Shown here: piece by piece, positions 60,255 through 62,779 of the stretch
Numbering within the stretch: position 1 is the stretch's first letter
How the letters are laid out: the number at the start of each line of letters is the position of its first letter
Assembly (NCBI RefSeq): GCF_001306175.1
Contig: NZ_LGKN01000003.1
Span: 868,001-932,000 of the forward strand
Source of the DNA: Ardenticatena maritima
Lineage (GTDB): Bacteria; Chloroflexota; Anaerolineae; Ardenticatenales; Ardenticatenaceae
Length of the DNA stretch: 64,000 nt
Reading direction: 5' to 3'
Program-made: the position numbers and the translations under genes
Notes under the pieces: generated by a model
Told to the model about the DNA's origin: nothing
Seen by the model: the letters and a program-made list of their open reading frames with translations, nothing else
Databases searched by the model: none

Positions 60255-60734
60255 CTATGCTTCCAGCGGCTCAATATGCAACTCAGTGGTAATCTGCACA
60301 CAATTGCGAATGGTGCGCGCAACCGGGCAATAATCGGCGTGAAAACCATGCACACGCTCGGCTGTGGCGTGATGTTCGGGCGCCGCTTTCAGCGTGTAGC
60401 GAACATGAATGCGCCGCACCACCAGCACGTTGCCATCTTTCTCAATCTCACCCACACATTCGGAAACCAACCGTCCTTCACCCGCCGGGATTCCGCGCGC
60501 TTCCAGCGCGCCGCCAAACGTACCGGTCAGTCACCCAGCGGTCGCCGCCACCAGATAATCAAGCGTGGTGGCGTGCGGTTCGTGCACGTTCTGGTCAACA
60601 CCGTAGTGCTCGGCAATTTCAGAATGCACACCAAAGAAGACGGGGTCCGGTTCGACGGGCAAATAGGCACGGCGTAATGGTCCTTTCACCCGCTCGATCC
60701 GCACATGGCTGCGATAGACCACCTTGTCCGCCAT
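60255..60734 (-). CDS. OsmC family protein with in-frame TGA at the catalytic cysteine (candidate selenoprotein)
   Basis: Reading through a TGA at 60533-60531 gives a 159-residue OsmC/Ohr-like hydroperoxide reductase. It begins MADKVVYRSHVRIERV after a perfect AAAGGAGG. The TGA is codon 68, in LVAATAG-U-LTGTFGGALE, exactly where OsmC proteins have their peroxidatic Cys. The second site Cys136 (HADYCPVART) is present. From 60511 to 60495 a stem GCGCGC-UGGAA-GCGCGC puts an apical loop with GG 26 bases after the TGA, in the range of bacterial SECIS elements. A Cys-to-stop mutation is the alternative. It follows the lactate permease by 19 bases. Confidence 0.72.
60495..60511 (-). promoter_or_regulatory. 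Candidate bacterial SECIS hairpin
   Basis: On the minus strand GCGCGC, loop TGGAA, GCGCGC: a six-base stem whose loop has G at its second and third positions, starting 26 bases after the TGA codon. Size, position and loop G fit known bacterial SECIS rules, but any GC-rich gene may form such stems. Confidence 0.45.
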
Positions 60735-60753
60735 ACGCACCTCCTTTGTGAAG

Positions 60754-62313
60754 TCAGTATGCGAGAAAGAACACGCCAACCGCCACCAACAACAAAAGGA
60801 GCATACCATACCCCAATGTGGCGCGCAACAAACGCCCCTCCTGCCCCGCCAAACCGGCTGTGCTCGCGCCGACGATGAGTTTGGCGGGGGCAAGCCCACT
60901 GCCCAGAGCGCCGCCCGCCGTTTGCGCCGCCAGAATCAGCGCCGGCGCAAATCCCAACACGCGCGCCATTTCTTCCTGCAATGGACCAAACACCACGTTG
61001 GAGTTGGTATTACTGCCGGTCATGAAGGCGCCGAGCGCACCAATGAAAGGTGCTACCAGCGGCAACCCGCGCCCCACAATCGCGGCAATTCCGCGCGCCA
61101 GGGTGTACGTCATGCCGGTGTGGTCGAGCACCAGCGCCATGCCCACCATCGCGAGAATGCCGCCCGTGCTTCGCAAGCCACTGCGCCAGACCTGGCGGGC
61201 AATGCGTCGCGTGACGCCCGACGTGTAGCACCCCAGGCGCGCATACACGAGCGCCGCCAGCACAGCCGCGTAGGTGATAATCGCCCCGGCATGCCCGAAC
61301 ACGCTGATGGGGCGCGCCCGCCCGCCTTCGACAACCCAGCCGCGCGCGGTTTCCACCGTCGGCAGATTGACGGTGAGTTGCACGCGGTCGAGCCAATCGC
61401 CCAACGGCGTGATGAATGTCACCAGCAAAAAGAGCACCAGCAAGAACAGATACGCATTGACCGCCAACCAGAGCGGCATGGCGGGGCGCTCGTCACTGTG
61501 CAGCGGACGCGCCGGCGCACGCCACCACGCCCAAAGCGCCCCCACAATCACGCCCGCCGCCCCGCCGCCAAACGCGGCAAGGTTCCACAAACCCGCCACC
61601 GCCAGCGCATACTGCACAAGCGCCATGGCGCTTCCCATGAGCACAAGCGGTACAAACGCGCGCGCCATACCGCGCCAGCCGCGCACTACATGCGCCGCCA
61701 CTGCACCGCAGCCATACGCGGCAATGCCCAGCAAAAACGCCGATGAAGCCGCGAAGGCGTGCGGGTCTACCTCGGTCACGGCAAGCATCGCGTAGAAACT
61801 TGACGCCACACTGCCAAACGTGACCGCCCAGCCATGCGCCAGCGTTGTACCGACCACCGCCGCCATCGGGTCGAACCCCAACCCGATGAGCAAGGGCGCC
61901 ACCACCGCCGTGGGAACGCCAAAGCCGGTAATCCCTTGCAAGAAACTGGCAAACGCCCACGCCAACAGCAAAAATTGCATCACCTCATCGCTGGTGAGAT
62001 GGCTCACATGCTCACTAATCGCGCGAATACCACCGGCTTCATTCACAACGTGGTACAAGAGCAACGCCGCCCAAATGATGTAGAGCACATAAGCGCTGAG
62101 AAAAACCGCGCGTACCTGTGAAACCACAATGAGCAGCGGCGTCGCACCGAAGCGCAACACGCCCACCAGGCTGGCAATCGCCCAACCTGCCAAACCCGCC
62201 CGCAACGCGTTCCAACGCGCCAACGTCATCAGCAAGAGCACAGCCAGGATAGGCAAGGCGGCCAGCACGATATCCAGCGCGCCGACGCCCGCCCCCGCCA
62301 AACTACTTGCCAT
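60754..62313 (-). CDS. L-lactate permease family (LctP-type) transporter
   Basis: 519 residues from the ATG at 62313 (MASSLAGAGVGALDIVLAAL), behind GGAGGTC. Around twelve hydrophobic helices. The family segments FASFLQGITGFGVPTAVVAPLLIGLGF and FMTGSNTNSNVVFGPLQ are clear. Family members take up lactate or glycolate with protons. It overlaps the Nudix gene's end by 11 bases and precedes the OsmC gene, so it belongs to the minus-strand operon. A GlcD-type flavoprotein for lactate lies 20 kb away. Confidence 0.88.
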   Translation of the reverse strand: MASSLAGAGVGALDIVLAALPILAVLLLMTLARWNALRAGLAGWAIASLVGVLRFGATPLLIVVSQVRAVFLSAYVLYIIWAALLLYHVVNEAGGIRAISEHVSHLTSDEVMQFLLLAWAFASFLQGITGFGVPTAVVAPLLIGLGFDPMAAVVGTTLAHGWAVTFGSVASSFYAMLAVTEVDPHAFAASSAFLLGIAAYGCGAVAAHVVRGWRGMARAFVPLVLMGSAMALVQYALAVAGLWNLAAFGGGAAGVIVGALWAWWRAPARPLHSDERPAMPLWLAVNAYLFLLVLFLLVTFITPLGDWLDRVQLTVNLPTVETARGWVVEGGRARPISVFGHAGAIITYAAVLAALVYARLGCYTSGVTRRIARQVWRSGLRSTGGILAMVGMALVLDHTGMTYTLARGIAAIVGRGLPLVAPFIGALGAFMTGSNTNSNVVFGPLQEEMARVLGFAPALILAAQTAGGALGSGLAPAKLIVGASTAGLAGQEGRLLRATLGYGMLLLLLVAVGVFFLAY

Positions 62314-62779
62314 ATTCGATGACCTCCACCAATGCCAGTTCGTCGTCGTAGATGTATTTGGCTTCGTAGAACGGCGCCTGCATATCGAGCACGTGGGGGG
62401 TGAAAACACGGTCGGCTTGGGGAAGCGGCAACGCGGCGATGTCCTCAATCGGCACCCACCGCAAGCGCCCTTCGCGTTCATCCGCCTGTACTGTGCCCGA
62501 AAAGTCATGCGTCACGTAGATGAAGAGCATCCAATGCCAATCGGGGCGCGGGGACACTTCGGTGACCAGACCGCGAAAGGTCAGCGAATGCGCCACCAAC
62601 CCTGTTTCTTCAAGCAGTTCGCGCCGCGCACACTCCATCGGCGCTTCGCCATGCTCGACTTTGCCCCCCGGCGCAACCCACAACCCCAGGTTAGGCTCTT
62701 TATGGCGGTAGAGCATCAACACCCGTCCATCGCGAACGCAGTAGATGAGCGTGCCCAAAATCGGCGTCGCGCGGCTCAT
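62303..62779 (-). CDS. Nudix hydrolase (8-oxo-dGTP type)
   Basis: 158 residues with a complete Nudix box, G-x5-E-x7-R-E-x2-E-E-x-G, as GGKVEHGEAPMECARRELL and EETGL near residue 38. The opening MSRATPILGTLIYCVRDGRVLML and WMLFIYV fit the MutT/8-oxo-dGTP diphosphatase group. The substrate is inferred. It overlaps the M20 gene by four bases upstream (ATGA) and the permease by 11 downstream. Confidence 0.87.
   Translation of the reverse strand: MSRATPILGTLIYCVRDGRVLMLYRHKEPNLGLWVAPGGKVEHGEAPMECARRELLEETGLVAHSLTFRGLVTEVSPRPDWHWMLFIYVTHDFSGTVQADEREGRLRWVPIEDIAALPLPQADRVFTPHVLDMQAPFYEAKYIYDDELALVEVIEYGK

Follow-up and report, generated by a model that had tools for sequence, protein, structure and literature searches.

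The OsmC-like gene and its neighbourhood

The window, which is the whole stretch of 64,000 nucleotides from Ardenticatena maritima that was analysed in this work, carries an OsmC-like frame that has a single internal stop codon, TGA at codon 68. The features identified at this locus are listed in Table 1. The frame was read directly from the window as MADKVVYRSHVRIERVKGPLRRAYLPVEPDPVFFGVHSEIAEHYGVDQNVHEPHATTLDYLVAATAG-TGA-LTGTFGGALEARGIP...YCPVARTIRNC...LHIEPLEA-stop, where the N-terminal part (MADKVVYR...LVAATAG) precedes the TGA and LTGTFGGALEARGIP follows it. The Pfam OsmC model (PF02566) matches residues 56-151 across the TGA with 50.5 bits against a cut-off of 27.5, and both this score and the modelled fold are those of an OsmC superfamily protein. 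The three other OsmC-family genes in the genome have no internal stops, and their similarity to this gene in simple pairwise alignments was too low to locate the active-site codon.

Table 1. Features of the OsmC-like locus in the window and the evidence for each of them.
Feature	Coordinates	Strand	Details and evidence
Predicted Sec-containing OsmC-like gene	60255..60734	-	ATG 60734-60732, U68, 159 residues, TAG stop 60257-60255; translation with TGA=U
Predicted Sec codon UGA, residue 68, OsmC peroxidatic-cysteine position	60531..60533	-	84/84 aligned sequences and Thermus OsmC alignment
Second active-site Cys C136, CPV motif	60327..60329	-	Invariant in 84/84; aligns with GCPVSRAL of 1ukk
Shine-Dalgarno AAGGAGGT	60739..60746	-	Direct sequence reading; just 5' of ATG, in gap after permease gene
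Lactate permease family gene, directly upstream	60754..62508	-	PF02652, E 6e-67; ORF end 60754
Predicted bacterial SECIS hairpin	60495..60511	-	+20 to +36 after UGA; synonymous constraint, MFE, bSECIS criteria

The sequence-only reading of this locus had described an OsmC frame with TGA at the catalytic cysteine that runs on to the normal end of the family with the second active-site cysteine intact. It had also noted a Shine-Dalgarno and a position behind a lactate permease gene. All of these were recovered in this work, and the gap between the end of the lactate permease gene and the ATG was found to be 19 bp. That reading gave no strand, and the gene was found on the minus strand. Both genes are probably co-transcribed. 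The upstream neighbour varies by locus among the homologues and includes aminotransferase, AMP-binding, HMGL-like, transporter, and methyltransferase genes. The link to lactate permease is therefore not general, and operon context was rejected as a clue to function.

The genome of another species of the same genus (G001) retains only about the last 49 codons of the gene, directly behind the lactate permease gene (L112 1498-1650). The start, the Sec codon, and the hairpin are gone from this remnant while SelA is still in the genome. The presence of a 3' remnant alone indicates that the gene is dispensable.

The TGA codon and the downstream hairpin among homologues

Homologues were sought in 84,980 genomes of bacteria and archaea, using peptide patterns from which the TGA site was excluded, and the best 80 loci were taken. 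All of these best 80 loci have TGA at the aligned codon. The window, the scan loci, and relatives from whole-genome searches gave 84 distinct sequences that were aligned, where the homologues are 58-79% identical and belong to about ten phyla. TGA occupies the Sec codon in 84/84 of them and Cys in 0/84, which answers the question of the homologous codon that the sequence-only reading had raised. The phyla, named after the titles given by the submitters, are Chloroflexota, Acidobacteriota, Thermodesulfobacteriota, Myxococcota, Poribacteria, KSB1, Nitrospirota, Nitrospinota, Gemmatimonadota, Tectomicrobia, and Actinomycetota. Most of the genomes with TGA-carrying homologues are metagenome bins, where foreign contigs are possible. 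A named strain, the cultured actinomycete Haloechinothrix halophila YIM 93223 (L086), also carries a TGA copy, which makes the gene testable.

The window's phylum was sampled with 400 genomes, and 37 of the 39 matches of at least 99 bits contain one TGA. Inspection at the codon level of 30 loci from this phylum identified TGA in 28, TGC in one (L138), and TGG in one (L139). L138 is 44% identical and is the nearest natural Cys form found. Cys is also found at the Sec column in L113, L114, and the Thermus OsmC structure 1ukk. The in-frame UGA of the window gene is thus located where homologues have UGA or the redox Cys. The TGG locus L139 (G401) also has a damaged hairpin, though SelB is in its genome, and probably represents a loss of function. 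An in-frame TAA is found at codon 96, where relatives have Glu, in L028/L108 (one metagenome-derived genome, same contig), and it is either early decay or a sequencing error. A second TGA clade of OsmC proteins (L141-L144) has about 36% identity and the motif U-M-Y-G-T.

The protein tree of the homologues is weakly resolved and exhibits somewhat mixed phyla, with 13 changes of phylum label compared to a minimum of 9. This topology hints at some horizontal spread across phyla.

The dN values are 0.13-0.21 before the TGA and 0.17-0.28 after it, while dS is above 1 or saturated. Purifying selection acts on the region that follows the TGA, which is constrained at the protein level and is therefore translated. 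Those checks proposed in the sequence-only reading that lend themselves to computation all supported it.

The hairpin downstream of the TGA consists of a 7-bp stem (GCGCGCU/AGCGCGC) with the loop GGA or of a 6-bp stem with the loop UGGAA. Its loop starts 26-27 nt after the UGA, with a spacing of 25-26 nt, and its minimum free energy (MFE) is -12.8 kcal/mol. The bSECIS model specifies a loop of 3-9 nt, a stem of 4-16 bp, G in the first two loop positions, a distance of 16-37 nt from the UGA, and an MFE of at most -7.5 kcal/mol (PMC13188914). The window hairpin agrees with this model in every respect, where the loop G is at position 1 or 2. The GC stem with a GG loop some 26 bases after the TGA that had been proposed earlier as fitting selenocysteine insertion is this hairpin. 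The folding energy alone was rejected as proof of a SECIS, as the energy of the window hairpin is unexceptional compared to chance (z -0.54) and 34% of the synonymous variants fold equally well. This DNA is so GC-rich that the energy is uninformative, and the significance of the hairpin comes from the comparison across homologues.

The stretch at +19 to +35 after the TGA is nearly fixed in nucleotides among the 84 sequences (GGCGCGCTGGARGCGCG). RNAalifold recovered hardly any structure from the bare alignment, since the stem is close to invariant and its register shifts between sequences. Synonymous constraint was therefore measured in its place. The test was performed on 51 representatives of less than 80% nucleotide identity and covered 93 conserved degenerate codons. 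The largest excesses of synonymous identity are at codons 76, 79, 77, and 75 (0.94 to 0.72), and the next value among the 93 codons is 0.36. Codons 75-80 have a mean excess of 0.62 compared to 0.02 elsewhere, and 0/200,000 permutations reach 0.62. The hairpin is conserved among the homologues under this constraint, as the earlier reading had suggested checking.

In 83/84 sequences, one of the two registers gives a stem of 5 bp or more with no interruption. Six sequences have C at +24, and in all six a G at +30 allows the stem to pair again after the register shift. Hairpins also occur at this position in the distant TGA clade L141-L144, but their sequences differ from this one. No stable hairpin was found at the SECIS position of L113 and L114, the two distant Cys forms. 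A GC hairpin (-10.6) is still possible in the Cys form L138, but it lacks the GGA loop motif, and L138 is therefore not a clean negative control.

Selenocysteine apparatus and the reading of codon 68

The genome (3.56 Mb, 98.6% complete) has a tRNA-Sec (70.2 bits; ARAGORN tRNA-SeC, anticodon tca) and matches to SelA (561.4 bits), SelB (354.9 bits, over the cut-off), and SelD (367.4 bits). All four components that accompany a bacterial selenoprotein gene are present, which equips the genome for selenocysteine. The search of the full genome for selA, selB, selC, and selD that had been suggested earlier therefore found the complete set. The SelD gene itself has TGA in the N-terminal catalytic motif VACAGUASK (L022 1489-2520; C5:535771-536703 in the genome of the window), and by its sequence the SelD of this genome is a selenoprotein too.

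SelA is over the cut-off in 45 of 50 genomes with TGA copies, mostly draft bins, and in a further two the match is weaker or partial. Within the window's class, 50 of 60 relatives also have SelA over the cut-off whether the gene is present or not, so its co-occurrence inside the class carries little weight. The Sec-OsmC gene of one genome is located about 1.7 kb from selA (G056:C84, L108).

The AlphaFold model, in which Sec was entered as Cys, exhibits the OsmC fold with pLDDT 94.6 and pTM 0.87. The best fold matches in the PDB are OsmC/Ohr proteins (Foldseek E down to 6.6e-9, probability 1.00). With the single protein as query, phmmer gave no match in the PDB, and a profile was needed for the alignment to Thermus OsmC 1ukk. 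This profile alignment places U68 on the first active-site Cys (AGCFSM) and C136 on the second (GCPVSRAL). Both active-site positions of OsmC/Ohr peroxidases are thus occupied by invariant residues, and R21 is also invariant among the aligned homologues. In known Ohr/OsmC proteins, the two Cys form a disulfide after peroxide reduction that is restored by lipoylated proteins or AhpD, while YhfA-type members of the superfamily have neither the catalytic Arg nor the catalytic Glu, and their activity is still to be studied (PMC8945050).

More than 80 relatives of about ten phyla share this TGA and this small hairpin, which argues that the TGA of codon 68 is almost certainly read as selenocysteine. 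We hold with high confidence that the gene encodes an OsmC-fold selenoprotein whose UGA 68 would be decoded through the downstream hairpin. The ribosome would start at the ATG at 60734. At UGA 68, Sec-tRNA(Sec) would be delivered by SelB, which would bind the hairpin located 20-36 nt downstream. SelA would make the Sec-tRNA(Sec) with selenophosphate from SelD, and translation would then run to residue 159. In the long helix, U68 would stand in for the peroxidatic cysteine, with C136 as the resolving cysteine. Homology in fold and in the two active-site positions suggests a peroxidase. Its likeliest mechanism would be a U68-C136 selenenylsulfide cycle that reduces organic hydroperoxides, or the protein may catalyse a comparable thiol-dependent redox reaction. 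The selenol would give faster chemistry, and lipoyl or AhpD systems are the probable electron donors, as in known OsmC/Ohr.

The competing reading that had been set beside selenocysteine is a recent Cys-to-stop mutation in an ordinary OsmC gene, either as a fresh pseudogene or as a sequencing error. TGA is one base from TGC and TGT, and the family does decay, as exhibited by the gene loss in the same genus (L112) and by the extra TAA in one relative (L028/L108). However, a fresh mutation does not agree with a TGA shared by 84/84 distinct sequences of about ten phyla, with a nearest natural Cys form of only 44% identity, or with synonymous constraint exactly on the hairpin. The conservation of the TGA across phyla excludes mutation, pseudogene, and sequencing error, and the chance left to this reading is negligible.

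The UGA might also be read as another amino acid, such as Trp or by non-specific readthrough, with the hairpin as a readthrough element, and the TGG of L139 is the observation that favours this. However, L139 also has a broken hairpin and looks like decay, and Trp at the catalytic Cys position would be inactive. The dedicated tRNA-Sec with the UCA anticodon and SelB in the genome, and a hairpin that fits the bSECIS model, make this reading very improbable. Sec codons in general can terminate translation under selenium scarcity. The UGA might accordingly serve as a regulated switch that yields a 67-residue product when selenium is limiting and the complete protein at other times, both of them being used. 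However, the 67-residue piece would be without the C-terminal half of the fold, and its sequence gives no hint of folding or activity, so a functional switch is highly unlikely as well. Decoding of UGA 68 as selenocysteine is preferred over all of these readings.

Gene callers that treat UGA as a stop would split this gene in two or call it a pseudogene, both here and in scores of its relatives. The family is also unusual in being almost exclusively Sec-containing, with a single Cys form and a single Trp form among the 30 codon-checked loci of the sampled phylum. This near-exclusive use of Sec makes it a good case for studying why some enzymes rarely revert to Cys.

Comparison with known OsmC-like proteins

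The OsmC/Ohr/YhfA thiol peroxidases (1ukk, 1nye, 2onf, 1ml8) have the same fold and the same two active-site positions as the window protein. They differ in having Cys at the peroxidatic position where the window protein has the predicted Sec, and the identity in fold alignments is 8-18%.

The claim of the sequence-only reading that Sec-containing OsmC-like proteins are known from metagenomic surveys is consistent with the literature. Three sequences were predicted in the Sargasso Sea survey in 2005 (PMC1088965), five in the GOS survey in 2008 (PMC2398784), and the family is in the selenoprotein list of a 2026 review with the redox motif UxxT (PMC13188914). The search for literature on OsmC selenoproteins in Chloroflexi found none. 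The gene in the window is a solid new example of a selenoprotein kind that is already known from metagenomes.

The published OsmC-like selenoproteins and the homologues in this work share PF02566/COG1765, predicted Sec at the redox-active Cys, and a bacterial SECIS just after the UGA. However, the two are set apart by the description of the motif, as the motif here is U-x-x-G-T (U-L-T-G-T in the window) where U+3 is G in 84/84 sequences, and the window gene does not exhibit UxxT. Their known distribution also differs, with three and five marine sequences in the surveys compared to many genomes in about ten phyla here. The U-x-x-G-T proteins could tentatively be regarded as a separate and almost exclusively Sec-containing OsmC subfamily, spread over about ten phyla with a near-fixed SECIS and overlooked when gene callers end a frame at UGA, but we consider this somewhat doubtful. 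Alternatively, the gene may belong to the published OsmC-like family, described there with a slightly different motif.
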